From Alphaproteobacteria bacterium (GTDB taxonomy: Bacteria; Pseudomonadota; Alphaproteobacteria; JABAAW01), in assembly GCA_014237925.1 (NCBI GenBank), contig JABACB010000006.1, positions 1-62,448 of the forward strand: a DNA stretch of 62,448 nucleotides, given 5' to 3'. The position numbers were made by a program, and so were the translations under genes. The notes under the pieces are model-generated. The model saw only the letters and a program-made list of their open reading frames with translations, was not told where the DNA came from and did no database searches. This document shows, one piece after another, positions 2,051 to 62,225 of this stretch (its first letter is position 1; each line of letters starts with the position of its first letter).

Positions 2051-2105
2051 GCGTTGTGGACACGTGCGTTGTGGACAGGCGCGTTGTGGACATGCGCGTT
2101 GTGGG
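2051..2105. repeat. 15 bp tandem repeat, 4 copies (last partial), between the two GT39 genes
   Basis: Units of 15 bp (gcgttgtggacacgt and variants) start at 2051, 2066, 2081 and 2096. The array lies between the stop of the first glycosyltransferase and the ATG of the second. It is translatable in frame with the second gene, but is most simply an intergenic array. Confidence 0.9.
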
Positions 2106-2154
2106 CTTGTGTTGCGTTGCTGCTGACATCTTGCGCGGGCGAGGCAATCTGACG

Positions 2155-3879
2155 ATGCGTGTTCGCAAGAACGACTGGGGAATATGGCTTGGTCTTGTTT
2201 TGTTGGTCCAAGCGGTTGTTTTGGTCGTGGTCTTTGCTTGTCTGCATCCGGGCTTGCAAGCGGATGCGGCGGAGATTCTCTACTGGACGCAGGAGCTACG
2301 ATGGAGCGGACAAAAGCATCCTGCCATGCCGTCGTGGATTCTGAGGGTCTTCTTGTTCTTTCTGCCCGATACCCTCGCCTCCTACTATCTTGTCGGACAA
2401 ATCACGCTAGTAGCCACCTATTTTTTCGTCTGGCGGCTGGCTCAAGAGTTTCTTGCACCCTTGTCTGCTCTGCTTGCGACGCTGATCCTTGCCTGCGGGT
2501 TTTTCTACAGCTTCTACAGCTTGACCTACAACGCGAACACCGTGTCGTTGCTGTCGTGGGCTGCCGTTAACTTCTTTTTTTGGAAAGCTCTCGACGACGG
2601 GCGACCACGATGGTGGATGGCACTCGCGCTCGCGGCAACGGTCGCGCTGCTGACGAAGTACGCAGCCGTCTTGTTGCTGGCGGCAGCGGGGATGACGGCA
2701 CTGATGCGCCCTCACTGGCGGAGACACTTCCAAACTTACAAACCTTACGCATGTGCGGGGGGGGTGTTGCTGCTCACCTCGCCGCATTGGTGGTGGGTCG
2801 TACAAAACGGCTACGCCACCTTTGCTTATGCAACGGTGCAGATCTCGCAAAAACCGGCTGTGCCGTTCTTGCCCGCGCTCTACTTTCCGTTGCGCTTCGT
2901 CTACGGACAGATCGTCAATATGCTCCCCGTTTTTTTGTGTTTCGCGGTCTTTCTTCCGTGGCGCGCCGCGCCGCAACCTTCTCACGAAGAGCTTCGCTCA
3001 GCACGCGATCGACGCGTTTTTCTGCTGACGATGGGACTGCTACCCTTCGTTTTTTCGGTTGCCTTCTCGGCATTGCAGCAGAAGTACATTCACAGCCTCT
3101 GGGGTTTGTTCTACTGGAACTTGACGGGAGTGGCACTCTTCTACTTCGCCAGGAACGCGATTTCTCTGCAGACGATTCGTCGAAGGGTGCCTGTTTTCTT
3201 TGCCGTGTGGGGTAGCCTCGTCTTGTTGACGACGGCGGGAGTGCTCGCCTTGCCTTTCGTCGCATCTCCGCGACAAGCGTGGCTGTTCGACGGTCCGTAT
3301 CAGGTGGTGACGAAACCCGTTGCCGCGAAGCCCTCGCTTATCGATGCGTTGCTCGGTCGTCGTGCACGGCAAACTTCTGGGCAACGGCTTGGGCAAAGCT
3401 TTGGAGATGAGAAAATGTCGTCGCGCGTCTTGCCGCGGATTTCGATGCCTCCGAGCTTGCGTCCTTTCTTCGACGGCAAGCTTGTTGCTCGGAGGGTTGC
3501 AGAGGGCTGGCGAGAGGCGGGGTATTCGCCGTTGTCGGTTGTCGGCGGCGGCTGGCTTGCGACCAATGTTTCTTTTTTTGCGCCTTCGAGACCTGCGGTC
3601 GTCGCGCTGTTCGACGGGGAGAGGACGGCGTGGCTTGCCCACAGCCGAGAGGAGTGGCGCGAGCAGGGAGGGGTTCTCTTGTGGTTTGCACGACATTCGA
3701 ACGAGGAGTTGCCGCGTCGGTATCGTCAGGTTTTGCGCGACCGACCTTATGTGTTGCAACAACCCTTTGTTGTGCCGTGGCGAAAGATTTTCGGAGTGGA
3801 GGTCAGGAGGGTGCGCGGCGTTCCCGCGCCGCTGATAGGGTGGGCGCTTGTTCCGCCCTTGGACGCGCGGCGTGAGTGA
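2155..3879 (+). CDS. GT39/ArnT-like membrane glycosyltransferase (second paralogue)
   Basis: A 574-residue paralogue of the preceding gene, alignable along its length. It has the same D37-A-A-E40-ILYW signature, KHPAMPSW, the FFYSFYSLTYNANT segment, YALxxPFxVPWRKI near the end, and a membrane-embedded N-terminal two thirds followed by a soluble tail. ATG 2155 is placed like the start of the first copy; the frame is open 33 codons upstream through the 15 bp repeat, which I exclude. The basic loop of copy 1 is different here. The pair looks like a tandem duplication that has since diverged, probably to glycosylate different lipid or polysaccharide acceptors (inference). It overlaps the start of the next gene. 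Confidence 0.8.
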   Translation: MRVRKNDWGIWLGLVLLVQAVVLVVVFACLHPGLQADAAEILYWTQELRWSGQKHPAMPSWILRVFLFFLPDTLASYYLVGQITLVATYFFVWRLAQEFLAPLSALLATLILACGFFYSFYSLTYNANTVSLLSWAAVNFFFWKALDDGRPRWWMALALAATVALLTKYAAVLLLAAAGMTALMRPHWRRHFQTYKPYACAGGVLLLTSPHWWWVVQNGYATFAYATVQISQKPAVPFLPALYFPLRFVYGQIVNMLPVFLCFAVFLPWRAAPQPSHEELRSARDRRVFLLTMGLLPFVFSVAFSALQQKYIHSLWGLFYWNLTGVALFYFARNAISLQTIRRRVPVFFAVWGSLVLLTTAGVLALPFVASPRQAWLFDGPYQVVTKPVAAKPSLIDALLGRRARQTSGQRLGQSFGDEKMSSRVLPRISMPPSLRPFFDGKLVARRVAEGWREAGYSPLSVVGGGWLATNVSFFAPSRPAVVALFDGERTAWLAHSREEWREQGGVLLWFARHSNEELPRRYRQVLRDRPYVLQQPFVVPWRKIFGVEVRRVRGVPAPLIGWALVPPLDARRE

Positions 3880-6358: not shown

Positions 6359-6856
6359 CGAATCAGCGTGGCATCAGTGTTACGCACCAGTATGAGACGC
6401 ATGTGTTACATCGCCTCAACCTTCAACGCCAAGCTATAACACGAACCAGATTGAAAGTAAAGTCTCAACCCAGCTGGTTTTCTTGGCGCGTCTGTTGCGC
6501 GAGCGCGTGCTTGTCAAGAAGCACAAGCGTGCGCGTAACAGAGATGTCACAGACGGACAAATCTATCCCAACCTCCTCTCTATCCCAACCTTCTCCTGCC
6601 TTCTGCCAATCCTCTCGTCCTGTCATGCGCAAAATCGTCGCCTCTGTGACGCGAGCCAGCTTGAAAGTAAAGTCTCAACCCAGCTGGTTTTCTTGGTCGT
6701 CTGTTGCGCGAGCGCGTGCTCGTTGCGCGCAACAGACATGTCAGTAGAACTTCGCATCGCTCATCGATGCTTCGCACTATTGTTTGTTCATTTTTTTGCG
6801 CCCATCTTTTTGCGCCTATTTTTTTCCACCCCCACCCATTTCTTACTGCTCTTGTC
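6359..6856. repeat. Duplicated intergenic block with hairpins between gltX and rsmA
   Basis: This 498 bp gap holds no gene. A segment of about 60 bp starting ttgaaagtaaagtctcaacc occurs at 6451-6511 and again at 6661-6720, exactly 210 bp apart. The second copy ends in a perfect 12 bp hairpin (arms GTCTGTTGCGCG and CGCGCAACAGAC, about 6699-6737). The first copy forms a longer imperfect version. Between the copies lies a decayed duplicate of the rsmA 3' end. The block looks like a tandem duplication of the rsmA downstream region. The 6780-6880 part is T-rich with several short repeated words (ttactgctcttg, tttttgcgcc). Confidence 0.8.
6553..6645 (-). pseudogene. Duplicated fragment of the rsmA 3' end
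   Basis: Read on the minus strand, this stretch gives ATILRMTGREDWQKAGEG and, after a short duplicated insert, GIDLSV. The intact rsmA product has STILRMAGREDWRKAGED followed by GIDLSRRAG (its final 35 residues or so, encoded around 6920-7005). Nucleotide identity is obvious (gacaaatctatccca, gccaatc, cgcaaaatcgtcg). It has no start and no catalytic parts, so it is a dead partial copy. Confidence 0.8.
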
Positions 6857-7744
6857 TTACTGCTCTTGTTTTGCTGCTTTTGCCCAGCGTAGCCACTCTT
6901 CTCCCCTCGCCTCCCCCGCCCGTCTGGACAAATCTATCCCAGCGTCCTCCCCCGCCTTCCGCCAATCTTCTCGCCCCGCCATACGCAAAATCGTCGACAT
7001 CTTCTTCCTGCGATACGAAAACAATAGCCCCGTCATCTCCGCCACAAGGGCATACTCCTCGCTGGTCGCCGTGTGTTCTCGCTCTCCGCGAGGAAAGAAT
7101 CGCACCACACACGAAACAACCTTAGGCACAGGAACAAAAGAAGACGGCGCAACATCAAAACATCGCTCGACACGAGACCGCAACCCCACCAACACCGAAA
7201 GCCTCCCGTAAGCGGCATCGCCGACCTCCGCCGTGATACGCTCGGCAACCTCGCGCTGAAACATCAACACCATCACCTTATGGCGACCTTCCCCCTCGCG
7301 CTCTAGCAACCTTCGCAAAATCACCGTACCTACGCTGTACGGCAGGTTGCCTACAATAACCGCGTCGTCTTCGCCGTCTCTTTTTTGAAGGATTTTTCCA
7401 TAATCCATCGTTCTCGCATCTCCCTCCACCACCTCCAATTCCCTTCCCTCGCTTAGCCCCTCGCTCCATCGTCTTAAGAAATCCGCTAGCCTTGCTTCCG
7501 CCTCGATGGCAACGATCCGCCTAGCTCCCTGGTGAAACAGCGCGCGCGTCAAAGCCCCTGCGCCTGCGCCAATCTCCACCACCGGCGACGAAGAAAGCCC
7601 CCCCCCGACATCACAACTTTGGGCAATACGCCTCGCGCAATCCGCATCTCTCAAGAAGTTCTGTCCGCGACTCTTCTGTCTGGCGCTCGCTTGCAACAAG
7701 CCGGCAGAGCGCAGCAGAGCCTGCATGTCCTCGTTCTCCTTCAA
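6857..7744 (-). CDS. rsmA: 16S rRNA dimethyladenosine transferase (KsgA/RsmA)
   Basis: Dimethylates the two adjacent adenosines in the 3'-terminal hairpin of 16S rRNA during 30S assembly. The 295 residues include GQNFL (27-31), the SAM-binding EIGAGAGALT (57-66), the catalytic NLPY (133-136) and SFVPVPKV, all diagnostic. The C-terminal helical domain ends in a Lys/Gln/Glu tail. Two starts are possible, ATG 7744 and ATG 7726; neither has a strong ribosome-binding site. It is the last gene of the lptF-lptG-lptD-surA-pdxA-rsmA run, 48 bp after pdxA, the same association as the classical surA-pdxA-ksgA cluster. Its 3' end has been partly duplicated downstream. Confidence 0.95.
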   Translation of the reverse strand: MKENEDMQALLRSAGLLQASARQKSRGQNFLRDADCARRIAQSCDVGGGLSSSPVVEIGAGAGALTRALFHQGARRIVAIEAEARLADFLRRWSEGLSEGRELEVVEGDARTMDYGKILQKRDGEDDAVIVGNLPYSVGTVILRRLLEREGEGRHKVMVLMFQREVAERITAEVGDAAYGRLSVLVGLRSRVERCFDVAPSSFVPVPKVVSCVVRFFPRGEREHTATSEEYALVAEMTGLLFSYRRKKMSTILRMAGREDWRKAGEDAGIDLSRRAGEARGEEWLRWAKAAKQEQ

Positions 7745-16321: not shown

Positions 16322-17572
16322 ATGTCGTCTCTCGTGTTGCAAACCCTCGATCAGAAAGATCCTGTTGTCATCGTCGCCGCGCGTCGCACGCCGATCGGCA
16401 GCTTTCAAGGATGCCTCGCGCCCGCAGACGCTCCGTACCTCGCCGCCTGCTGCATCAAAGCTTGCCTGAAGGACATGGCTTGCAACGAGGAAGATGCTCG
16501 TCGTGTCTTTTCTGCCCGTAGTGTCTTTTCTGAAGGTCTTGTGGGTTGCGTGCTTTCCGCAGGAATCGGACAAGCACCAGCGCGTCAAGCCGTACGGGCA
16601 GCAGGCTTGCCCGACAGCGTGGGCGCGACCACAGTCAACAAGATGTGCGGCTCAGGTCTGAAGACGGTGATGATGGCGTGCGACTCCCTTGTACACAACG
16701 CCGATGCCGTGATCCTCGCCGGAGGCATGGAAAGCATGAGCTCCGCCCCGTACCTGTTGCGCGCGCGCGGCGGCTTGCGAATGGGACACGCACGCCTGCT
16801 AGACCACATGCTGTGCGACGGCTTGGAGGACGCCTATCCTCAAGAGGGCGAGGCAAAGAAGAGCATGGGCGTGTTTGCCGAAGAGACGGCGCAGGAGCTG
16901 CAAATCTCGCGCAAGGAGATGGACGACTTCGCCATCCGCTCCTTGAACGAGGCACGGCGTGCCAACGAGGACGGAAGCTTCGAGGGCGAAATCGTTCCCA
17001 TCACGCTACCCTCGCGCAAGCAGGCTTCGGTCGTGCAAAAAGACGAGCAACCCTTCAAAGCCGACCTCGCCAAGATTCCGCGTCTGAAAGGAGCCTTTGT
17101 CAAGGACGGCAGCATCACGGCAGCGAACGCCTCGTCCATCTCCGACGGAGCTGCCATGCTCGTCTTGGCACGAAGATCGTTTGCAGAACGACAGGGCTGG
17201 AAGCCACTGGCAAGCATCAACGCTGTCTCCGCGCACGCACGCGAACCGCAACGTTTCACGCTCGCTCCCATCGAGGCGTTGCAAAAACTCGAACGGGCTT
17301 GCGGATGGGGCTTCGAGAATGTCGATCTGTTTGAAATCAACGAGGCATTCGCCGTCGTCACCTTGGCTGCAATGCACGCCTTGCGCTTGCCCGCCGAGCG
17401 CGTCAATGTCAACGGCGGCGCGTGTGCACTCGGACATCCCATCGGCGCATCAGGCGCACGCATTCTCACAACCCTCCTCCACGCCCTGCACCGAAGAAAC
17501 TTGACGCGCGGCATGGCCGCGATTTGCATCGGCGGCGGCGAGGCGCTCGCCATCGCTATCGAACGCTTGTAG
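16322..17572 (+). CDS. Acetyl-CoA acetyltransferase (thiolase)
   Basis: A thiolase of 416 residues, probably biosynthetic or ketothiolase type (AtoB/PhaA). It condenses or cleaves acetyl-CoA units. The nucleophilic Cys109 sits in NKMCGSGLK. GGMESMSSAPY follows, then NEAFAVV, GHPIGASGAR with the active-site His, and the second catalytic Cys in CIGGGEA near the C-terminus. ATG 16322 is chosen because upstream codons run back through tRNA-Val. A short Arg/Phe/Ser duplication (VFSARSVFS, about residues 62-70) is a small repeat insert. No phaB or other lipid gene is adjacent, so the pathway cannot be fixed. A repeat array starts on its stop codon. Confidence 0.93.
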   Translation: MSSLVLQTLDQKDPVVIVAARRTPIGSFQGCLAPADAPYLAACCIKACLKDMACNEEDARRVFSARSVFSEGLVGCVLSAGIGQAPARQAVRAAGLPDSVGATTVNKMCGSGLKTVMMACDSLVHNADAVILAGGMESMSSAPYLLRARGGLRMGHARLLDHMLCDGLEDAYPQEGEAKKSMGVFAEETAQELQISRKEMDDFAIRSLNEARRANEDGSFEGEIVPITLPSRKQASVVQKDEQPFKADLAKIPRLKGAFVKDGSITAANASSISDGAAMLVLARRSFAERQGWKPLASINAVSAHAREPQRFTLAPIEALQKLERACGWGFENVDLFEINEAFAVVTLAAMHALRLPAERVNVNGGACALGHPIGASGARILTTLLHALHRRNLTRGMAAICIGGGEALAIAIERL

Positions 17573-17660
17573 AACGCTTCTTCGCTTCTTGGAACGCTTG
17601 TTTTGGAACGCTTCTTGGAACGCTTATGATGGAACGCTTATGATGGAACGCTTATGATAG
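17561..17660. repeat. Tandem repeat seeded on the thiolase stop codon
   Basis: The last thiolase codons and stop (gaacgcttg tag) are followed by repeated (g)gaacgctt words, becoming 14 bp units ggaacgcttatgat at about 17618-17659. A smaller repeat, (cc)aagatcgt twice, lies just ahead of hemC at 17733-17755. Confidence 0.88.
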
Positions 17661-28800: not shown

Positions 28801-29268
28801 TCAAGTTTCGAAAAATGTGCTCGGATTGCTCGGTACAGGCAAATCGATGCCCCCCTCTCCGAAGCCGCCGAAAAGCCCCGCCAGCAATGCCACCACGAAA
28901 AAGACAACATTCATGACGCACAAACCCTTGACGACAGCAGACCAAAAGGGCTGCTTCGCGCCGTTCTTGTGCGCCGAGCGCCACAACCCCACCAGCTGCC
29001 ACACAGAGATCCCCACCGAAAACACGCCCAACAGCACAACGCCTGTCGGCGAGAGCATGATGCGTCGTAATAGGATCCCCGCTCCCAAGTTGACGAAGAA
29101 GCAGTTGATCCAAAAGGACTCGGCAAGCGACAAATTCCCGCGCCAATGGTCTTGAACCCACGCGCACAAGGAAAGCCACACGCGCCGCCAAAAGTCTTCC
29201 CCATGGAATTTGTTGGGGAATTTGTTGGGGAATTTGTTGGGAAATTTGTTGGGGGACATGTCTGCCAT
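28801..29268 (-). CDS. Small conserved-type membrane protein
   Basis: A 155-residue protein of unknown function (ATG 29268; ATG 29259 possible). After a repeat-derived NKFPNKFPNKFPNKF leader come W-rich segments FWRRVWLSLCAWVQDHWRG, then membrane stretches FVNLGAGILLRRIMLSPTGV and VLLGVFSVGISVWQLVGLWR. The Gly-Leu-Trp-Arg-Ser-Ala signature ending the second helix is shared by a family of small hypothetical membrane proteins. A third helix lies near the C-terminus (VVKGLCVMNVVFFVVALLAG). It is 54 bp downstream of mttB on the same strand and may be co-transcribed with it. Confidence 0.65.
   Translation of the reverse strand: MADMSPNKFPNKFPNKFPNKFHGEDFWRRVWLSLCAWVQDHWRGNLSLAESFWINCFFVNLGAGILLRRIMLSPTGVVLLGVFSVGISVWQLVGLWRSAHKNGAKQPFWSAVVKGLCVMNVVFFVVALLAGLFGGFGEGGIDLPVPSNPSTFFET
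29205..29252. repeat. 12 bp tandem repeat, 4 copies, at the start of the small membrane gene
   Basis: Four 12 bp units (ggaatttgttgg) code for repeated NKFP right after the start codon. Confidence 0.92.
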
Positions 29269-34718: not shown

Positions 34719-34776
34719 GGGCGCGGTGTGAGAAATTGGTTTCCAAGTTGTTTTGTGCAAAAAAAGGCAGGGGGGA

Positions 34777-35034
34777 ATCCGATTGAGTAGCCGTTGCCTG
34801 TTGGTGTTAGTTCATTTATCTTTGATGTACAATAGTGGCAGGGGCGTTTCAAAAGATATTTCTATTGCTTACGCTATGTTTTCAATCGTCAAGGAAAGAG
34901 GAGAAATGTTTTTTATTATTGAAGATACCTATCATGAGATCGAGGCAGGGCTGAGTGATGATGACCGCCTAAAAGCGAGAGACTTCTTGGTGGAGCTGCA
35001 GCAAAAGCGCCTAGAAGCGAGGAGGAAAAAGTAG
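34777..35034 (+). pseudogene. Truncated Sel1-repeat protein remnant
   Basis: The frame from about 34777 (open to 34753) reads LSLMYNSGRGVSKDISIAYA then MFSIVKERGE and a helical tail. The LxxMYxxGxGVxxDxxxAYxxF pattern is one Sel1 repeat plus the usual closing helix (LSDDDRLKARDFLVELQ). Normal Sel1 proteins have several repeats and a signal peptide, which are absent, so this is a 3' fragment with no proper start. Base composition is much more AT-rich than the flanking acpS and dnaX. A tandem array begins on its stop codon. Confidence 0.65.
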
Positions 35035-35165
35035 ATGACAAAGTAGATGATAAAGCAGATATGGTTTGCAAAGTAGATATGATTGGCAAAGTAGATATGA
35101 TTGACAAAGTAGATATAATATAGAGAGTAGATATAACATAGAGAGTAGATATAACATAGAGAGGC
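35022..35165. repeat. AT-rich tandem array starting on the Sel1-remnant stop codon
   Basis: Degenerate units of 12-18 bp around aaagtagatatgattg / gagagtagatataacata run from the last Lys codon and TAG of the Sel1 remnant to 35165. Nearly every unit repeats a TAG. Confidence 0.88.
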
Positions 35166-37047: not shown

Positions 37048-37785
37048 ATGGTTGCAACAGTTGCAACGGCAGCTTACTTGGCGATCGGAAACGAGCTCTT
37101 AGTAGGAAGGACGCAAGAAAAGAATTTGCAAGTCCTGACGAAGTTTCTCAATCCGCGCGGCATTCGTCTTGTCGAAGCGCGTTTGATCTCGGATCGTAGC
37201 CGTGAGATTCGTAGCGCAGCCCGAACCCTCTCGCGCCGCGCCGATGTTCTGTTCACCTCAGGCGGCATCGGTCCCACGCACGACGACATCACAACGGCAG
37301 CCGTTGCCGCCGAGTTCGGCTGTCCGCTGGAAATCTCGGAAGAGCATTTCGAAAGAATGAGCAAATACTACAAGGAGCGCGGCGAATCGATGACGGCACC
37401 ACGCTTGAAAATGGTCAGGCTTCCGCGCGGCGCAGAGCCGATCGCCAATCCTCTTACCATCGCACCGGGGTTTCGAATCGACAATGTCTATGTCTTGGCA
37501 GGCGTGCCGCAGGTGTTCGAAGCCATGCTGCAAACGCTCGCGCTCAAAATCGCTGGCGGCAGCGCGCGCCTCAGCGAAACGCTCTACACGATCTTGCACG
37601 AAAGCCGCTTCGCCGAAGCTCTGCAAGGCATTCAAGAACGCCACCCCGAAAGCGAGATCGGAAGCTATCCGCGCATGCAAGGCGAACGATGGAAAAACGC
37701 CATCGTCGTCTCGGATACCGACGCTCTCCGTCTCGGCGCGGTTGTCAAAGATTTGCGCGCTATGCTAAAATCCCTGAAATCTTGA
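37048..37785 (+). CDS. CinA N-terminal-type / molybdopterin-binding domain protein
   Basis: A 245-residue protein with the MoCF (MoaB/Mog-like) fold of CinA: AYLAIGNELLVGRTQEKNLQ, FTSGGIGPTHDDIT (the domain's signature) and VYVLAGVPQVFEAM. The C-terminal nicotinamide-nucleotide deamidase domain of full CinA is absent, as in a common alphaproteobacterial single-domain form. Exact activity is uncertain. ATG 37048 has GGAG about 14 nt upstream; TATAGT at about 36999-37004 could be the -10 of its promoter. A repeat array begins on its stop codon. Confidence 0.85.
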   Translation: MVATVATAAYLAIGNELLVGRTQEKNLQVLTKFLNPRGIRLVEARLISDRSREIRSAARTLSRRADVLFTSGGIGPTHDDITTAAVAAEFGCPLEISEEHFERMSKYYKERGESMTAPRLKMVRLPRGAEPIANPLTIAPGFRIDNVYVLAGVPQVFEAMLQTLALKIAGGSARLSETLYTILHESRFAEALQGIQERHPESEIGSYPRMQGERWKNAIVVSDTDALRLGAVVKDLRAMLKSLKS

Positions 37786-37835
37786 AAGAATCCTCTTGAG
37801 AGTTTTCTTGAGAATCCTCTTGAGAATCCTCTCGC
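37778..37835. repeat. Tandem repeat seeded on the cinA-like stop codon
   Basis: Units around aatcctcttgag repeat the final codons and TGA of the preceding gene three to four times (aatcttga, cctcttga, ttcttga, cctcttga) into the ynjB leader. Confidence 0.85.
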
Positions 37836-39696: not shown

Positions 39697-41487
39697 ATGC
39701 GTTTTGCCCCCCCCCTGACCCTGTTGCTGTTCCTTGCTCCCGTCTTGTGCGGGCTGGCTGCGGTCGTGCTGCCCGCCTTCGGCTACTTTCCCGCGCTCGG
39801 ATTGCGCGACCTTTCGCTCGCGCCGCTAGCTGCGTTTTTGGAAGTTCCGCACCTGCTCGATTCTGTCCTTTTCACGCTTAGTTGCGGCTTGGGCGCGACC
39901 TTGCTCTCGTGCCTCGTCGTCTTTGCGCTGTTTTCCTCCTTCGGCGAGCGCGGCGTGATGCGCTTTTTTCGCCGCTGCCTCGCGCCCTTGCTCTCCGTTC
40001 CGCACGCGGCGATCGCGCTGGGCATGGGTTTTTTGTTCGCTCCCAGCGGCTGGTTTCTGCGCGCGTTCTCCCCTTGGCTGACGGGCTTCGAAGAGCCGCC
40101 CTTGTGGCTGACAAACCCCGACCCTTACGGAATCTTGTATGTTCTCGCGCTTGTCGTCAAGGAGGTGCCGTTTCTGTTTCTGATGACGCTCTCCGCCGAG
40201 AACGCCGCGAACGCACCGCGCGCCCTCTTCGTGGCGCAGGGCTTGGGCTACGCACGCCGTGCAGCCTTTTGTCATAGCGTCTTGCCGATGCTCTATCGAC
40301 GCTTGCGTCTTCCGATCTACGCTGTCTTGGCGTTTTCGCTGACAAACCTGGAGGTAGCCTTGACGCTGGGACCCTCGCGCCCAGGGTTGTTTGCCGAGCG
40401 ATTGCTGGCTTTGGCGAACGCTCCCGATCTAGCGCAACAGCCCACAGCCGCCGCCGCAGCGTTGTTTCAAGTGCTGCTGGTGGCAGGCGCGATCGTCTTA
40501 TGGCGCGGCGGCGAAAAAATGATCGAAACCTGCTGGCGCGCAGGGTTGCAAGCAAAAAAGACGACAGGCTTTGTCATGGGAGATACAAGGGGAGGTACAA
40601 GAGGAGGCATAAGGGGAGGCATAAGCCGTTGCAACGACACGCTTAAGAACATGCTTGCAGGCGGCGGCGGGCTGCTCGTCTGCCTGCTCGGATTGCTTGC
40701 GATCGCGCTCTTGCCTCTGTGGTCCTTCGCAAAAACATGGCGATTCCCTTCCGCCTTGCCTGATACATGGACGCTCGCTTTGTGGAGCAACAAGTTCGAG
40801 CGAATTCTCGCCCCTCTATGGCTTTCGCTCACCCTCGCCTTGGCGGCGGCGGCGTGCGCCTTGCTGCTCTGCATGCTGTGCTTGGAGCAGGAGTCGCGGC
40901 AGAAAACGCGCCGCATCGACAAGAATCCCAATTCACAAACCAATTCACAAACCAAAGCACAAGCCAAGGCGATGGTGGCTCTCTATTTGCCGTTGTTGTT
41001 GCCGCAGACCTCGTTTTTGTTCGGCATTCAGATCTTGCTGTTTTCTCTTTCTTTGCAGGCGAGTTGGTTGATTCTCGTGTGGTCGCACATGCTTTTTGTG
41101 CTGCCTTATGTGTTTCTCTCGTTGAGCGGATCATGGCGTAGTTTGGATCGAAGGTTCGCCTTGACCGCCGAAAGCTTGGGTTGCTCGCCTGCGCGCAGGC
41201 TTGTGCGCGTGACGCTGCCGTTGTTGTTGAAGCCTCTGCTGACCGCGTTCGCGTTGGGGGTTTCTGTTTCGATCGCGCTGTACGCGCCCAGCGTCTTGAT
41301 CGGCGCGGGGCGTTATGCGACCTTGACGAGCGAGGCGGTCGCGCTTTCGTCGGGGGGCGATCGTCGCATCGTCGGTGCGTTCGCGTTGTTGCAGGCAGCC
41401 TTGCCTTGTTTCTTCTTTATGGCGGCTTTGCTGGTGCCGCGAGTTGTGTGGCGCAAGCGCGCCTTCATGAGAGGACTCTACGGCTGA
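39697..41487 (+). CDS. ynjC: ABC transporter permease, YnjC-like (fused two-domain)
   Basis: A 596-residue inner-membrane permease with two binding-protein-dependent transport domains in one chain, about six helices each. EAA-type cytoplasmic loops are visible as AQGLGYARRAAFCHSVLP (first half) and AESLGCSPARRLVRVTLPLL (second half), which contact the ATPase. The linkers carry repeat inserts (GDTRGGTRGGIRGG and SQTNSQTKAQAKA). A good ribosome-binding site precedes ATG 39697. It works with YnjB and YnjD. The final codons and stop are duplicated directly downstream. Confidence 0.9.
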   Translation: MRFAPPLTLLLFLAPVLCGLAAVVLPAFGYFPALGLRDLSLAPLAAFLEVPHLLDSVLFTLSCGLGATLLSCLVVFALFSSFGERGVMRFFRRCLAPLLSVPHAAIALGMGFLFAPSGWFLRAFSPWLTGFEEPPLWLTNPDPYGILYVLALVVKEVPFLFLMTLSAENAANAPRALFVAQGLGYARRAAFCHSVLPMLYRRLRLPIYAVLAFSLTNLEVALTLGPSRPGLFAERLLALANAPDLAQQPTAAAAALFQVLLVAGAIVLWRGGEKMIETCWRAGLQAKKTTGFVMGDTRGGTRGGIRGGISRCNDTLKNMLAGGGGLLVCLLGLLAIALLPLWSFAKTWRFPSALPDTWTLALWSNKFERILAPLWLSLTLALAAAACALLLCMLCLEQESRQKTRRIDKNPNSQTNSQTKAQAKAMVALYLPLLLPQTSFLFGIQILLFSLSLQASWLILVWSHMLFVLPYVFLSLSGSWRSLDRRFALTAESLGCSPARRLVRVTLPLLLKPLLTAFALGVSVSIALYAPSVLIGAGRYATLTSEAVALSSGGDRRIVGAFALLQAALPCFFFMAALLVPRVVWRKRAFMRGLYG

Positions 41488-41590
41488 GCTACGGCTGAGC
41501 CAAACTAGGTTGGGTGAGGCTATAAGGTTAGACTATAGGGCTAGGCTATAGGGTTAGACTATAGGGTTAGACTGGGGGTTAGTTAGGCTG
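41478..41590. repeat. Stop-codon duplication and tandem array after ynjC
   Basis: The 11 bp ctacggctgag, containing the ynjC stop TGA, occurs at 41478-41488 and 41489-41499. It is followed by 15-19 bp units around ctatagggttagacta from about 41515 to 41590, up to the ynjD leader. Confidence 0.9.
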
Positions 41591-41653: not shown

Positions 41654-42337
41654 GTGACAAAACAAGCGGCACAAGGTTGCCAAGAAAGCCACGAGGGGTT
41701 GCGCTTGGAGGGCGTTTCGCTGTTTTTGGACGAGCAGTGCTTCGTGCGTGCACTCGACTTGCAGGTCGGGCGCGGCGAGATCGTCGTCTTCATGGGGGCG
41801 AGCGGGTCGGGCAAGTCGTCGTTGCTCTCGTATTTGTGCGGTGCGCTCTCGTCTTCCTTCCGCGCGTGCGGTCGCGTCTTCTTGGACGGCGAGGAGATCA
41901 CCGAGCTGCCCGTCTGTCTGCGTCGCGTCGGGCTGCTGTTTCAGGAGGACTTGCTCTTTCCTCACATGTCGGTCGGCGAGAACTTGGCGTTTGCAGCGCG
42001 GGTTGTCGAAGATTCGCGCGCGCAAATTCGCGCGCGCGTCGAAGAGGCGCTAGAGCAGGCGGGACTTTCGGCGTTCGGCGCGCGCGATCCGCACAGTCTT
42101 TCGGGCGGTCAGAAAGCGCGCGTCTCGTTGATGCGCTGCCTGCTCGCGCGTCCGCGCGCCTTGCTGTTGGACGAGCCGTTCTCGAAGTTGGACTTGCCTT
42201 TGCGGCGTAGCTTTCGTCGCTTCGTTTTTGCCAAGATCAAAGAGCGCGGCGTGCCGACCCTTCTCGTGACGCACGATCCTGCCGACGCGCGTGCTGCGGG
42301 GGGAAGGCTGCTGGCGATGGAACACTTAGCAAATTAA
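41654..42337 (+). CDS. ynjD: ABC transporter ATP-binding protein, YnjD-like
   Basis: A 227-residue ATPase. It has Walker A GASGSGKSS, Q-loop LLFQED, signature LSGGQKARVSL, Walker B LLLDEPFSKLD and switch His in VTHDPADA. All catalytic residues are intact. It starts at GTG 41654 after a tandem-repeat leader. Third gene of the ynjBCD system; it powers the YnjC permease at the inner membrane. Its stop TAA is the seed of another array. Confidence 0.93.
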   Translation: MTKQAAQGCQESHEGLRLEGVSLFLDEQCFVRALDLQVGRGEIVVFMGASGSGKSSLLSYLCGALSSSFRACGRVFLDGEEITELPVCLRRVGLLFQEDLLFPHMSVGENLAFAARVVEDSRAQIRARVEEALEQAGLSAFGARDPHSLSGGQKARVSLMRCLLARPRALLLDEPFSKLDLPLRRSFRRFVFAKIKERGVPTLLVTHDPADARAAGGRLLAMEHLAN

Positions 42338-42412
42338 CTCGGCAAAAAACTCGGAAAATTAACTCGGCAAAATAACTTGACAAAAAACTTGACAAAAAAC
42401 TTAGTGTAAAAA
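42331..42412. repeat. Tandem repeat seeded on the ynjD stop codon
   Basis: Units of (c)aaattaactcggcaaaa, which include the ynjD stop TAA, pass into cttgacaaaaaa units. Confidence 0.88.
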
Positions 42413-47941: not shown

Positions 47942-50836
47942 GTGGTAGCGCAGGCAAGTCCACGCGGCGACAAGGCTGCGCCAAGCCAAACTTCGCAGGA
48001 ACCTTCGCAGGAATCCTTGCAGGCACAGAAGGCGCAGGAACAGAAGGTGCAGGCACAGAAGGCGCAGGAACTCTCGCCGGACCTGACCCTCATCGATGCC
48101 TACGGCTATGTTTTTCGCGCCTACTACGCGCTTCCGCCGATGGCGCGCTCGGACGGCACGCCCGTAGGCGCGCTCTACGGGTTCTCGCGGATGCTCGCTC
48201 AGCTGTTGGGCGAGCGTCCGCAGCAACGTTGCCTCGTCGTCTTCGACGCTGAGGGCAAGAGCTTTCGCAACGCCATCTACCCCTCCTACAAGGCGAATCG
48301 CCGCGAGACGCCGCCAGACCTCAAGGCGCAATTTCCTCTCGTGCGCACGGCAGCCGAAGCCTTCTCCATGCCCAAGGTCGAGCAGGAAGGCTTCGAAGCC
48401 GACGACCTCATCGCCCTCTACGCTCGCTTGGCGCGCGAGAAGGGGTGGCGCGTCGAGATCTGCTCTTCCGACAAAGACCTCATGCAGCTCGTCGAAGACG
48501 GACAGATCTTCTTGCGCGACCCCGTCAAGGGAATCGTCATCGACGAGGCGAAAGTCCTGGAACGATTCGGCGTACCGCCGAACAAAGTGTGCGATGTCAT
48601 GGCGCTCGCAGGCGATCTCAGCGACAATGTCCCCGGCGTGCCTGGGATCGGGGTCAAGACCGCGGCAGAGCTCATCGTGCGATTCGGAGACTTGGAGACA
48701 TTGCTGGCAAAAACAGCAGAGATCACGCAGCCCAAGCGACGCGAAGCCTTGGAGAAGCACAAAGAGCAAGCCAGACTCAGCTACAAGCTGGTCTCGCTTG
48801 CAGACGACGCGCCTTGTCTGCTTTCTTTGGAGACGCTGGAAGCCCCGCGTCCCGAGCGTGAGAAGCTGCGCGCCTTCTTTCAAGAACAAGAGTTCCGCTC
48901 GCTGTTGCGCGACCTGGATTCACCCCGACAGCAGGGCTTGAACAGCCTGCTCGTAGTGCACGACAGCGCCAAGCAGCACGGCGACGAAGACGACTTGAGC
49001 GCGCGCCACAGCGTCGAGACCTTGAGCGAAAAAGAAGCGTTGGAAAATTTTTGCAGCACCGCGCGAGAGCAAGGCTATACGGCGATCGACATCGAGACGA
49101 CGGGGCTGAATGTGGTTGCAGCTGAGCTTGTCGGCGTTGCTCTGTGTGTCGGTTTTCGCGCTGCCTATCTGCCCTTGGCGCACCGCGATGCGGAAGGAGA
49201 ACTGCTCGAAAAGCAGATCGCACTTGCCGAGGCATTGGCGATCTTGAAGCCCTTGTTGGACGATCGCGCAACGCTCAAGGTGGGACACAATCTGAAGTAC
49301 GACGCGGCGATCTTGCAAAAATACGGCGTGGACCTCGCGCCTTGCGACGACACGCTTCTGATGTCGGCGGTGCTTGACGGCGGCAAGCACGGACACGGCT
49401 TGAAAGAGCTGGCAGAAAAGCATTTGCACCATCGCATGACGCCCTACAAGGAGGTCGTCGGCATAGGGCGCAAGGCGGTTTCTTTCGATCGCGTCTCGAT
49501 CGAGGCAGCGAGCGCTTACGCCGCAGAGGACGCTTGGGCAACGCTACGTTTGCACGAACAATTCTCGCCGCGTCTGCTGCGCGAAGGCGGCAAGCAGGTC
49601 TACGAGACTTTGGAGCGTCCGTTGATTCCTGTCATCGTCGCCATGGAACGCTGCGGCGTGCGCATCGATGTGGGTGTCTTGCAAGCCTTGAGCGTACGCT
49701 TCGAACGCCAGGCGGCGGCGTTGGAGAAACAGATCGTCGAACTGGCGGGAGGAGATTTCTTGATCTCGTCGCCGAAGCAGCTGGGCGAAGTGTTGTTCGA
49801 GCGTCTCAACTTGAGGGGGGGCAAGAAGACGCCGAGCGGGCAGTATGCAACCGACAGCCGAATCTTGGAGGGCTTGGCAGCCGAAGGACACGAGATTGCA
49901 GAGCTTGTCCTGCGATGGCGCCACCTATCGAAGTTGCGCTCCACTTACACCGAGGCGCTGCCGCGCGAGGTGCAAGCGGCGACAGGACGCATCCACACCT
50001 CCTTTTCCTTGAGCGGCGCGCAGACGGGGCGACTCGCTTCGTCCGAGCCAAACTTGCAAAACATTCCCGTGCGCAACGAGGAAGGACGCGGCATCCGCAG
50101 CGCCTTCGTCGCAGCGAAGGGCTTCGCGCTGGTCTCGTTGGACTATTCGCAGATAGAGCTGCGACTCGTCGCTGCCATCGCCTCCGTCGAAGGCATGCTG
50201 GAAAGCTTCGCACAAGGGCGCGACATTCATCAGGCGACCGCACAAGAGATGTTTGGCGCAACATCGAAAGACGAACAAGACGCCAAGGAACAACGCCGTG
50301 CAGCGAAGGCGGTCAACTTCGGATTGCTCTACGGCATCTCGCGCTTCGGCTTGTCGAAGCAGCTGGGGGTGAGCGAGGCGGAAGCGCAGGATTTGATCAA
50401 CCTCTACTTCGCGCGCTACCCCCAGCTCAGAGACTATCGATCGAGCACGATCGCTTCCTGTCGCACGCGAGGCTATGTCGAGACGCTTTTCGGAAGAAAA
50501 ATTCACCTCCCCCTGATCGCCGAGCGTAAGCAGAACTTGCGCTTGCACGCCGAGCGCCAGGCGATCAACGCGCCGATACAGGGGACGGCGGCGGACATCG
50601 TCAAGCAGGCGATGATTCGCATCCACCGCGCCTTAAAAGACAAGACGCACGCGCTGGCTGGCACGCGCATGCTCTTGCAAGTCCACGACGAGATCGTCTT
50701 GGAGGCACCCTTGGAACAAGCGGAATCGAGCGCGCGTGCTGCACAAGAGATCATGCGACAAGCCGCCGCGCCACAACAACAGCTGTCGGTTGCGTTGGAG
50801 GTCGACTATCGCATCGGCGAAAACTGGGCTGTCTGA
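47942..50836 (+). CDS. polA: DNA polymerase I
   Basis: Repair and Okazaki-fragment polymerase, 964 residues, full three-domain form. The 5'-3' exonuclease spans about 38-330 (LIDAYGYVFRAYYALPP, EADDLIALYA, GDLSDNVPGVPGIGVKTA). The 3'-5' exonuclease is intact with AIDIETTGL, GHNLKYDAA and YAAEDAW. The polymerase has motif A LVSLDYSQIELR, motif B RRAAKAVNFGLLYG and motif C LLQVHDEIVLEAP. The first 37 residues are a Gln/Ala/Lys-rich repeat (QAQKAQEQKVQAQKAQE); the start GTG 47942 is uncertain. The last 19 bp including the stop are duplicated directly downstream. Confidence 0.96.
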   Translation: MVAQASPRGDKAAPSQTSQEPSQESLQAQKAQEQKVQAQKAQELSPDLTLIDAYGYVFRAYYALPPMARSDGTPVGALYGFSRMLAQLLGERPQQRCLVVFDAEGKSFRNAIYPSYKANRRETPPDLKAQFPLVRTAAEAFSMPKVEQEGFEADDLIALYARLAREKGWRVEICSSDKDLMQLVEDGQIFLRDPVKGIVIDEAKVLERFGVPPNKVCDVMALAGDLSDNVPGVPGIGVKTAAELIVRFGDLETLLAKTAEITQPKRREALEKHKEQARLSYKLVSLADDAPCLLSLETLEAPRPEREKLRAFFQEQEFRSLLRDLDSPRQQGLNSLLVVHDSAKQHGDEDDLSARHSVETLSEKEALENFCSTAREQGYTAIDIETTGLNVVAAELVGVALCVGFRAAYLPLAHRDAEGELLEKQIALAEALAILKPLLDDRATLKVGHNLKYDAAILQKYGVDLAPCDDTLLMSAVLDGGKHGHGLKELAEKHLHHRMTPYKEVVGIGRKAVSFDRVSIEAASAYAAEDAWATLRLHEQFSPRLLREGGKQVYETLERPLIPVIVAMERCGVRIDVGVLQALSVRFERQAAALEKQIVELAGGDFLISSPKQLGEVLFERLNLRGGKKTPSGQYATDSRILEGLAAEGHEIAELVLRWRHLSKLRSTYTEALPREVQAATGRIHTSFSLSGAQTGRLASSEPNLQNIPVRNEEGRGIRSAFVAAKGFALVSLDYSQIELRLVAAIASVEGMLESFAQGRDIHQATAQEMFGATSKDEQDAKEQRRAAKAVNFGLLYGISRFGLSKQLGVSEAEAQDLINLYFARYPQLRDYRSSTIASCRTRGYVETLFGRKIHLPLIAERKQNLRLHAERQAINAPIQGTAADIVKQAMIRIHRALKDKTHALAGTRMLLQVHDEIVLEAPLEQAESSARAAQEIMRQAAAPQQQLSVALEVDYRIGENWAV

Positions 50837-50970
50837 CGAGAACTGAGCTGTCTGACGAGAACCGCAGAGCGCATCACTCGTCAGATTTTGCCGTCAGATT
50901 TTGCCGTGGGCTCTTGTCTTCATGTCTCTTGTCTTCATGTCTCTTGTCTTCATGTCTCTTGTCTTTAGGT
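50822..50970. repeat. polA stop-codon duplication and 15 bp array at the polA/thrC junction
   Basis: The 19 bp aactgggctgtctgacgag, which contains the polA stop, is followed at 50841-50859 by an almost identical copy. Then comes a doubled cgtcagattttgc (about 50879-50905) and four 15 bp units ctcttgtcttcatgt (50911-50970), ending inside the last codons of thrC. Confidence 0.93.
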
Positions 50971-53556
50971 TTTTTCTTCGTCTTCCGCAAGAGGAGGGGG
51001 GGTGATCACAGAGGAAGTTTCGCTCGATTCTGTCGTCGCCTCTTCTGTTGTCGTCTCTCTTGTCGTCGCTTCTTCTGCGGTCTCTGTTGACGCTGCGGAG
51101 GGGGAAAAGAAGTTCTCGGCTCCGACGAGCGTGTTTGTCGCTTCATCGTTCTCTTGGTCTGCTTCTTGTGCGGTCTCCTTGATTTCCTCTTCTAGGCTTG
51201 CAGGAGCGGGGGAGGAGGGGAGAGGGTAGCCTGTCTCAAAGGTTGCGTGCGCTGTCTCCGCCACTTCGTCGAGCTTCGCGCTTTGTTCTTTCAGCTTGGC
51301 GATCTTCTCTTGCAACGACGCTTGTCCTTGCTCGGCGGCGGCGGCGAGCGAGACGATGCCATCGTCCGAAAAGGGAGCAGAAGAGGGATCAGAAGCGATG
51401 CCAGAAACGATTCCCTCGTCTCCTATTTCTGCGTCTCCTATTTCTGCGTCTCCTATTTCTGCGTCTCCTATTTTTGCATCTCCCATCGTTTCGGTCATGA
51501 TTTCTGTCTCTGTCTTCTCGTCTTCCCACGCCATCGGCGCACGATCCATCGGCGCACGATCGAAGGGGGAGGGGGACAAGGGATCGTCCGCCAGCGCAGA
51601 GGAGGGAGCGGTCGCAGGCTTTTCGAGCGTCTCGTCGAGTTGCGCCGTCTGTTCTTTGAGCTTGGCGATCTTTTTCTCCAGCGAATCTTCCTCCGCCGTC
51701 AGCGCCGCCACGGCGGGCATCTCAGGCATGGAGGAAAGAATTGGAGGAAGGGGGGCGGCGGAGAAGGGCGACTCTGAGCTTGCCTCCGCCAATGCTTGCC
51801 CTTGTCTTTCCTCCTGCGTCTCCGCTTGCGCCTCTGCTTGCATCTCTGCTTGCGCCTCTGCTTGCGTCTCTGCTTGCGTCTCTGCTTGCGTCTCTGCTTG
51901 CGTCTCTGCTTGCATCTCTTGCTCCCCCAAGCCGTTCCTCCCTTCTTCTGTCGGGGCTTCTGTTGCAGCGCTGCTCGTCTCCGTTGCGCTTTGTTCCGAA
52001 AGTGCATCTTTTTGAGGCACTTCTTCCTGGAGCGTTGTCGGCGCAACGGCGGCGGTCGTCGCAGCGGCTGCAGTGGCTGTGCCGCCTCCCTCTTCGCTCG
52101 GCACTGCCGCATCCGAATCGAGAGACTCTTTCAAGCGCGCAACGACGATGCTCTCCAGCGCATCCACATCGGCAGGGATCGTCTCAAACGCCTCCGCCCT
52201 CGTCTCCAGCTCGGCAAGCCTCAAGGGAATGTGCGGTCTCGTGCCGATGGCGCGCTCTAGCGTCTCAGGAAACTTCGCCGCAGAGGCGGTCGCAAAGACA
52301 ACGGTGCTACAATCGTGCGCCGTGCGTTTGTTCGCGTTGCCGCTTGAGCCGCTGCGTGCGTCTTTGGCAGCGTTGAGCGCGATGGCAGAATGCGGATCAA
52401 GAGGCTCGCCTACGCTGTTGTAGGCTTGGCTCATGGCTTCGAGAATCTGCTCGTCGTCGAAACGTTGCGTGCGGAAAAATCGAAAGATCTCCGAGCGCAT
52501 CGCACCCTTCGGCACGCGGAGCGTCCCGCTTTCTTCCGCCTGCTCGCGCATCTTTTTCCATTTGCGCACGCTCTCATTGAGGCTACGGAAGAGCAGTCGC
52601 TCGATGTTGTTCGGCGTCATAATGTCGATGCTGGGGGCGAGGCTAGGCACGACCTCACCGCTTGCCGCCGAGCCGTGTTGAAAGAGGTTATGCAGGAAAT
52701 CGTTGTGGCTAACAGCGAGCGTCAGCCCTTCGATGTTCGCGCCCAATTTCTTCGCAACATAGCCGGCATAGGCGTTGCCGAAGTTGCCGCAGGCGAGCGC
52801 GAAGCGCACCGATTGGGTACGGGGAATCCGTTGCGCCGCGTAGAGGTAGACGGCGCTTTGGACGGCGATACGAATCCAGTTGAACGAGTTGACCGAAGAA
52901 ATCTGTCCGCGTGCTTGAATCGCTTCCGATTGCGCAACCGCCTTGACCAAACGCAGACAATCGTCGTAGCTGCCTTCGACGGCGATGTTGCAGATGTGCG
53001 GCGCTTGGACGCAAGTCATCTGCTTGCGTTGCAGGGCGGAGATGCGGTCTTTCGGATGCAGCATGAACAGTCGAACGCCGCGAACGGATTTCAGCGCCTC
53101 GATGGCAGCTGAGCCCGTATCGCCTGAAGTTGCGCCGATCATGATCAGCAGACGCTTCCTCTCTGTCGCAAGGGCTTCGAGAAGCTGTCCGTAGAACTGC
53201 AGCGGGATGTCCTTGAAGGAGAGCGTCGGTCCGTGAAAAAGCTCGAGCAACCAAAGGTTGCGCTCCACCTCGCGCAAAGGAACGACGGCGCGGCTGTGGA
53301 AAGGTTCGAAGGCTTTGTGAGCAATCTTCGTGAAATCAAGATGCGGCAGAACGCGTCGTCCGGCGAAAAGCCCCACCACAGCTCCTACGATCTGCGGGAA
53401 AGTAGGGTTCTTGGCAAGGAAGTCGCGCAAACGACGCTTGCGCGGCCAGCTCGTAGGCTCGTACAGACCGCCGTCAGCCGCAAGCCCGCCGCTGAAAATA
53501 TCCGCAAATGTCCGCTTCTCGCCCCCGCGAGTCGATCGGTAGTGCATGGTGTTCAT
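50965..53556 (-). CDS. thrC: Threonine synthase with a ~380-residue acidic, repetitive C-terminal extension
   Basis: Converts O-phosphohomoserine to threonine with PLP. Residues 1-480 are a complete threonine synthase: MHYRSTRGGEKRTFADIFSG, PLP-lysine K115 in GPTLSFKDIPLQFYG, GATSGDTGSAAIEAL, HPKDRISALQRKQM, SSVNSFNWIRIAVQ and ALACGNFGNAYAGY. The remaining ~383 residues (50965-52116) have no counterpart in ordinary ThrC. They comprise Ala/Thr/Glu low complexity, a (AETQ)n tract, GDAEIGDAEIGDAEIGDE repeats, and two copies of a helical KIAKLKEQ(S/T)A(Q/K)LDE motif about 125 residues apart. The extension is strongly acidic and probably disordered or coiled-coil. ATG 53556 or 53547. Confidence 0.93.
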   Translation of the reverse strand: MNTMHYRSTRGGEKRTFADIFSGGLAADGGLYEPTSWPRKRRLRDFLAKNPTFPQIVGAVVGLFAGRRVLPHLDFTKIAHKAFEPFHSRAVVPLREVERNLWLLELFHGPTLSFKDIPLQFYGQLLEALATERKRLLIMIGATSGDTGSAAIEALKSVRGVRLFMLHPKDRISALQRKQMTCVQAPHICNIAVEGSYDDCLRLVKAVAQSEAIQARGQISSVNSFNWIRIAVQSAVYLYAAQRIPRTQSVRFALACGNFGNAYAGYVAKKLGANIEGLTLAVSHNDFLHNLFQHGSAASGEVVPSLAPSIDIMTPNNIERLLFRSLNESVRKWKKMREQAEESGTLRVPKGAMRSEIFRFFRTQRFDDEQILEAMSQAYNSVGEPLDPHSAIALNAAKDARSGSSGNANKRTAHDCSTVVFATASAAKFPETLERAIGTRPHIPLRLAELETRAEAFETIPADVDALESIVVARLKESLDSDAAVPSEEGGGTATAAAATTAAVAPTTLQEEVPQKDALSEQSATETSSAATEAPTEEGRNGLGEQEMQAETQAETQAETQAETQAEAQAEMQAEAQAETQEERQGQALAEASSESPFSAAPLPPILSSMPEMPAVAALTAEEDSLEKKIAKLKEQTAQLDETLEKPATAPSSALADDPLSPSPFDRAPMDRAPMAWEDEKTETEIMTETMGDAKIGDAEIGDAEIGDAEIGDEGIVSGIASDPSSAPFSDDGIVSLAAAAEQGQASLQEKIAKLKEQSAKLDEVAETAHATFETGYPLPSSPAPASLEEEIKETAQEADQENDEATNTLVGAENFFSPSAASTETAEEATTRETTTEEATTESSETSSVITPPPLAEDEEKT
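51419..51478. repeat. 15 bp tandem repeat, 4 copies, in the thrC extension
   Basis: Four units of tctcctatttctgcg encode GDAEI repeats on the minus strand. A second array of 12-bp-type units (gcttgcgtctct, gcctctgcttgc) at about 51828-51916 encodes the QAETQAE tract. Confidence 0.92.
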
Positions 53557-61106: not shown

Positions 61107-62147
61107 ATGTCCCCCCTCCGCCCGCTCATCCTCTTCGGTCCCACCGCCAGCGGCAAATCGCGCCTTGCCCTCGCCCTCGCCCGAGCCCTCGCACACACCA
61201 CCACAACCCACATCGTCAATTGCGACTCGCTCCAACTCTACACACACTTGCCCATCCTCACCGCCCAACCCTCTGCTGCCGACCAAGCCGAAACGCCCCA
61301 CCACCTCTACGCCGTCGCCCATCCCTCTGAACGACTCTCGGCAGGGTTGTACGCAGAGAAAGCAACAGACCTGCTCCAACACCTCCAGCGCGATCACCCC
61401 TCCGATGCCGTCATCTTGTGCGGCGGCTCAGGACTCTATCTTAAGGCGCTGCTCGAAGGCTTGACCGAACTCCCACAACCCTCGCGCCGAGCCACACAAA
61501 AAATCCGCCGATGGCAGAAAGAACAGCGCGACCTCTATACGCTCCTACAACAACGCGACCCCGCAACCGCCGCCGCTCTCGCGCCACAAGACAAACATCG
61601 CATCGTGCGCGCGCTCGAATTCTACGAAACCTGCGGCGCGTCGCTCTTCGATGCTCGCAAGGGCGTCAAGCAATCCTCCCCCTTCGCGCAACAAGAAGAG
61701 CGACAGCCCTTGCTGATCTCGCTCACCCCCTGTCGAAAAATCTTGTACGCAGCGATCAACGCGCGCTTCGAACGCATGCTCCAACAAGGTGCCATCGAAG
61801 AGGTGCGCGCTCTCGAGGCAGAGAACGCCTTGCCTTGCGAAAGCCCCTTGCCTTGCGAAAGCCCCTTGCCTTGCGAAAGCCCTTTGCGTAGCGCGTTGGG
61901 CTTGAAAGAGATCGAAGCCTATTGCAGAGGAGAATCGTCCTGGCAAGCGATGGTCGAACGAGGACAGCAGAGGGTGAGAAATTACGCCAAAAGGCAGCTG
62001 ACTTGGATCCGCCACCAACTGCCTGGCAAGGCGTTGCTGCTGCAACGCCAGCTGACAGAATCGGTCGAAGAGGATTGCAACGGGGTTTGCCACGCGGTCG
62101 GGCAAGCTTGGAGCAAAGCTTCTTGCGCCGACAAGCCGTTCGTGTAG
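61107..62147 (+). CDS. miaA: tRNA dimethylallyltransferase
   Basis: Adds the isopentenyl group to A37 of tRNAs reading UNN codons. The 346 residues include P-loop LFGPTASGKSRLAL (Gly11-Ser18), NCDSLQLYTHLPILTAQPSA with the catalytic Asp, ILCGGSGLYLKALLEG, and SALGLKEIEAY with RQLTWIR near the end. A (LPCESP)3 insert before that last motif is encoded by an 18 bp array. Starting ATG 61107 fits the conserved N-terminus. The array downstream repeats its stop codon. Confidence 0.95.
   Translation: MSPLRPLILFGPTASGKSRLALALARALAHTTTTHIVNCDSLQLYTHLPILTAQPSAADQAETPHHLYAVAHPSERLSAGLYAEKATDLLQHLQRDHPSDAVILCGGSGLYLKALLEGLTELPQPSRRATQKIRRWQKEQRDLYTLLQQRDPATAAALAPQDKHRIVRALEFYETCGASLFDARKGVKQSSPFAQQEERQPLLISLTPCRKILYAAINARFERMLQQGAIEEVRALEAENALPCESPLPCESPLPCESPLRSALGLKEIEAYCRGESSWQAMVERGQQRVRNYAKRQLTWIRHQLPGKALLLQRQLTESVEEDCNGVCHAVGQAWSKASCADKPFV
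61828..61881. repeat. 18 bp tandem repeat, 3 copies, within miaA
   Basis: Three exact or near-exact units of ccttgccttgcgaaagcc encode LPCESP repeats between two conserved segments of MiaA. Confidence 0.93.
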
Positions 62148-62225
62148 AATAAGACTTTGCAGAATAGACTTTGCAGAATAGCCTTTGCAGAATAGCCCTG
62201 CAAAACAACCCTGCGAAACAACCCT
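62145..62225. repeat. Tandem array seeded on the miaA stop codon
   Basis: From the miaA TAG onward, units of gactttgcagaata (about 14-15 bp) repeat the TAG several times and then shift to ccctgcgaaacaa units before ilvI. Confidence 0.9.

Follow-up and report, generated by a model that had tools for sequence, protein, structure and literature searches.

Stop-codon-copying tandem duplications in an alphaproteobacterial genome are very probably mainly a boundary effect of purifying selection

We found that the genome of this alphaproteobacterium is unusually full of tandem duplications of about 12 bases, and that the arrays copying stop codons are, very probably, mainly a boundary effect: the duplications would arise genome-wide, most likely by slippage, and purifying selection would leave the stop-copying ones behind at gene ends. 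Array starts become frequent one repeat unit before the stop and their density is flat beyond that point; the stops are conserved in relatives, and the periods of arrays within genes are divisible by three. For array starts, gene ends are weak hotspots at best.

The window, i.e., the whole analyzed stretch of 62,448 nucleotides, is one contig of a 1.97 Mb MAG in 409 contigs (G000). Genome-wide frequencies were calculated for 754 kb in 11 large contigs of this MAG, with 541 gene ends, and stretches of four congeners (G001-G004; 41-289 kb each, from incomplete MAGs) served for comparison. Genes were called by a purpose-written hexamer-based finder, so that long gaps may conceal unannotated genes. 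Three array sets were used: TRF at two settings and a purpose-written independent array finder. It should be noted that many statistical tests were run across the array analysis.

The window contains 1.33 arrays per kb, versus 0.02 in the shuffled sequence, and the 11 contigs contain 0.62-1.33 per kb, versus 0.00-0.05 when shuffled; head-to-tail copies are thus far above chance. The window (1-62448) is also the densest of the 11 contigs, the others ranging from 0.62 to 1.00. The overall density per kb is 0.84 in G000, 0.58-0.80 in G002-G004, 0.11 in the congener G001, 0.12 in G005 and 0.06 in spirochaete loci. Arrays with periods of 11-16 bp (mode 12) are approximately 7-fold denser in G000 and the congeners G002-G004 than in G001. 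The latter is not simply an outgroup, being nearer to G003 and G004 (median identity 68-70%) than to G000 (59%). The period is divisible by three in 96% of genic arrays versus 46% of intergenic arrays. Because genic arrays preserve the reading frame, and because arrays recur in several independent MAGs, we consider the arrays real and reject an assembly artefact.

The preliminary description of the window listed seven gene ends where an array was said to start in the last codons and to copy the stop. We checked them with TRF and the independent finder. A complete stop lies within a TRF-detected array in four of the seven (polA, ynjC, ynjD and the Sel1 remnant), for which the description stands; the miaA, thiolase and cinA-like arrays fit it only marginally. 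The polA gene (48017-50836) ends in a TGA at 50834-50836, and its 19-bp array (50818-50862, +; 2.4 copies) starts within the last six codons and copies this TGA once, out of frame; the array is near-exact, with AACTGGGCTGTCTGACGAG followed by AACTGAGCTGTCTGACGAG. At the end of the ynjC-like permease gene (39697-41487), an 11-bp array of 2.1 copies (41478-41500, +) likewise copies the TGA out of frame and is followed by a 13-bp array at 41512-41582. The ynjD-like ABC ATPase gene (41654-42337) has an array over its TAA (42335-42337) with periods of 13, 12 and 25 bp (42329-42402, +), called either as 42329-42377 with period 13 or as 42321-42401 with period 25. The fourth case is a 93-codon Sel1-remnant ORF (34753-35034, stop at 35032-35034), which was not called as a gene and has no Pfam match; its 12-bp array (35028-35060, +) runs over the TAG and yields in-frame stop copies.

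The other three arrays touch or follow the stop. For miaA (61107-62147), a 14-bp array (62146-62195, +; start placed at 62143-62146) begins inside the TAG, and the next copy reads CAG, so that the stop itself is not copied. The thiolase and cinA-like arrays begin 2-11 bases past the stop. The thiolase gene stops with TAG at 17570-17572, directly followed by an array with periods of 8, 14 and 26 bp (17575-17658, +) that TRF starts at 17575-17583; only a degenerate first copy, GAACGCTT at 17561, lies in the gene. The cinA-like (MoCF_biosynth) gene (37048-37785, stop at 37783-37785) is followed by a 12-bp array (37787-37832, +), and upstream of 37787 there is only a degenerate TCTTGA.

With permissive TRF settings, 7 of the 46 called genes of the window have an array beginning in the last repeat unit. 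Three of these had not been listed before: 2092-3879 (+), 28801-29268 (-) and 50965-53556 (-). The last is a threonine-synthase-like gene, and a 15-bp array (50911-50965, -) abuts or overlaps its 3' end. Separately, the gene 6857-7726 (-) has a 14-bp array (6841-6882, -) whose start lies roughly two units into its 3' end, and this array encodes the C-terminus and holds the stop; here the C-terminus has been reshaped and no finished stop is copied.

Over the 541 stops, we measured how far each array start lies from the final base of the stop and scaled this distance by the period of the array itself. The density of array starts is 0.03-0.12 per 100 bp between -3.5 and -1 units; it rises to 0.45-0.53 within the gene's final unit and is 0.34-0.60 over the two intergenic units that follow. 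In the three array sets, the last gene unit significantly exceeds inner gene units (RR 5.9, 4.4 and 2.9; P from 3e-9 to 2e-7) and does not differ from the three intergenic units that follow (RR 1.04, 1.02 and 1.06; P = 0.84, 0.92 and 0.74). The density therefore steps up one unit ahead of the stop; at the stop itself there is no peak (541 ends, 754 kb). The same one-unit step is present in G003 and G004. Start codons have no in-gene step, and arrays become frequent only 15-25 bases upstream of them, as would be expected if upstream leaders are constrained. Our literature search turned up no earlier mapping of array starts relative to stops.

Gene ends had been proposed as either the preferred point or the first tolerated point of duplication. 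The former reading finds no support in these data, given that the start density in the last unit equals the intergenic density; the latter is right in substance but misplaced, since tolerance begins a full repeat unit ahead of the stop. With coding constraint taken into account, array starts are essentially uniform.

Could gene 3' ends nevertheless be true mutational hotspots, e.g., through transcription termination, colliding RNA polymerases or hairpins close to the stop? We compared the number of stop-overlapping arrays to a placement null model, in which each array was re-placed at random, uniformly within its own gap, under the one-unit rule. With the purpose-written finder, 31 such arrays were observed versus 23.0 expected (P = 0.03), and 45 versus 30.0 when pooled with relatives (P = 0.0008); with TRF, the numbers were 34 versus 28.2 (P = 0.10), and the TRF sets are not significant in this test. 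When the comparison was restricted to short gaps with a 5' margin, the excess shrank to 22 versus 16.7 (P = 0.04), and in the window alone 2 arrays were observed versus 2.0 expected. The residual excess of 1.3-1.5-fold in gap placement would fit a hotspot, as would seven arrays whose start coincides with the second base of the stop (P = 0.008 per position, before correction for 49 positions). The excess at stops is method dependent: 1.2-1.5-fold in the placement test, versus an RR of 1.02-1.06 in the density test. Against a hotspot, the density test gives no excess, arrays are not overrepresented in the first intergenic unit (19 versus 20.9), and array edges carry neither a motif nor a hairpin signal (see below). 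We regard a true hotspot at gene ends as improbable.

Under the boundary model, tandem duplications of approximately 11-16 bp would arise throughout the genome, the most likely mutational step being slipped-strand mispairing between direct repeats of 1-4 nt during replication, and arrays, once formed, would grow and decay. Selection would purge duplications that change start regions or proteins. If a duplicated segment of p bases holds a stop, the protein should stay intact because the first copy retains the stop and the protein still ends there; array starts would therefore be tolerated as soon as the stop is no more than p bases away, and as often as between genes. On this reasoning, stop-copying arrays would mostly mark the boundary at which purifying selection ceases, and the extra stops would be a by-product.

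Orthologous genes bear on the relative age of stops and arrays. The polA, ynjC, ynjD, thiolase, miaA and cinA-like genes end within approximately one residue of the ends in relatives, except for an offset of two residues in one thiolase pair and one ynjC pair, and of eight in ynjD of G001. The C-terminus of polA, for example, is conserved in G001 and G004, both of which have no array there. Relatives keep all six stops and have no counterpart of five of the arrays; the cinA-like gene differs in that one relative, G004, has an array of its own, an unrelated array of 15-bp period, which starts 11 bases before the gene ends and copies its TAA. Of the array-bearing gaps in G000 that have an orthologous gap, 13 of 13 hold no array in G001 and 10 of 20 hold none in G004. 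Because the stop positions are kept in relatives that have no such arrays, the stops are older than the arrays.

Some stop-overlapping arrays could have the opposite history, with a lengthened or truncated C-terminus that now ends in a neighboring array. The one-unit cut indeed has exceptions: among 28 stop-crossing arrays with frame-breaking periods, i.e., those not divisible by three, 7 start farther than one unit into the gene. Ends within 5 residues of the relative's end are also rarer for genes with the stop in an array (7/17) than for the others (106/150, P = 0.025), although the sample is small and the tails of some pairs align poorly. This scenario does not apply to the six genes with conserved ends described above. 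We consider it possible, if somewhat doubtful, for a part of the stop-overlapping arrays, and it may explain part of the excess in the placement test.

The arrays had also been thought to produce runs of back-up stop codons. Extra stops do occur, but they are incidental, being spread over the three frames. The Sel1 remnant is the only one of the seven listed examples with an in-frame stop copy at the regular period, and polA and the cinA-like gene have no in-frame stop within 90 bp. In favor of selection on stop-covering arrays as a source of back-up stops, genes with stop-spanning arrays do carry more stops downstream (1.39 versus 0.45 in frame per 57 bp). However, the excess is alike in all three frames (46, 34 and 36 extra stops in 33 genes with stop-spanning arrays, P = 0.34), and periods divisible by three are not overrepresented among stop-spanning arrays (10/28 versus 140/303). 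Moreover, a survey of eubacteria detected no selection in favor of additional stops (PMC6764699). Selection for back-up stops is extremely improbable here; the extra stops are a by-product of copied DNA and bear no sign of selection.

The array density behaves as a genome-level trait, high in G000 and three congeners (0.84 and 0.58-0.80 per kb) and low in the fourth congener and the spirochaete loci (0.11 and 0.06), which could point to a specific repair defect, in flap processing by DNA polymerase I, in mismatch repair, or in end joining with fill-in. The three repair proteins checked (PolA, MutS and Ku) argue against such a defect. The 5' nuclease domains of PolA give full matches and can be aligned without any loss, being intact in G000, G001 and G004, and loss of the flap nuclease was rejected; MutS occurs in both array-rich and array-poor genomes, and loss of mismatch repair was likewise rejected; Ku is absent from array-rich and array-poor genomes alike, i.e., everywhere searched, which disposes of Ku-type end joining. 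We regard a specific repair defect as possible but rather unlikely. Loss of PolA proofreading was rejected as well, since the state of the motifs does not match array density: the 3'-5' exonuclease motifs DIETTG, HNLKYD and YAAED are intact in the window gene (48017-50836) and degraded in G001 (L042) and G004 (L031). The window PolA is 57% identical to that of the alphaproteobacterial MAG G004 and mostly 33-40% identical to spirochaete PolA. On these identities, a spirochaete origin, to which most contig hits had pointed, was rejected, and the host is most likely an alphaproteobacterium. A second polA fragment in the G000 assembly (L107, G000:C359:1-5289), 77% identical and running off the contig end, probably belongs to a related species whose DNA was binned into this MAG.

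A motif or DNA structure at the junctions had been suggested as worth looking for. Array edges carry no sequence motif (approximately 0.05 bit per position or less), and there is no hairpin signal, the collapsed pre-duplication sites being less foldable than control intergenic DNA. In two-copy arrays, the mean overhang beyond two periods is 2.79, versus 0.85 for blunt random duplications (P = 5e-8), where the overhang includes partial third copies and first-step microhomology is not cleanly measured. These overhangs suggest slippage between very short repeats.

The hotspot idea thus gives way to a simple rule, namely that a tandem duplication becomes neutral for the protein once it starts within one unit of the stop. 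The one-period step is a quantitative mark of purifying selection acting on duplications, and other genomes can be searched for it. Richness in 12-bp arrays in four of five congeneric genomes but not in the fifth poses a testable question on mutation spectra. It is conceivable, although we would not favor it, that this small alphaproteobacterial clade has a distinct mutational regime, in which duplications of approximately 12 bp occur at several times the congener's rate and array starts closely map coding constraint, possibly with a slight true bias toward 3' ends.

The extra stops resemble the additional tandem stop codons known from yeasts (PMC1088959) and eubacteria (PMC6764699) in lying downstream of the true stop. 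Unlike those, the stops described here come from copied DNA, fall in all frames and show no sign of selection. Slipped-strand tandem duplications and minisatellites occur in bacterial intergenic regions, and the arrays share with them short head-to-tail copies, junction microhomology, in-frame periods within genes and lineage specificity. Minisatellites are variable segments (PMC2884548). Unlike known bacterial minisatellites, the arrays reach a density far above that of the related loci sampled, and their periods cluster at 11-16 bp, 12 being the mode.
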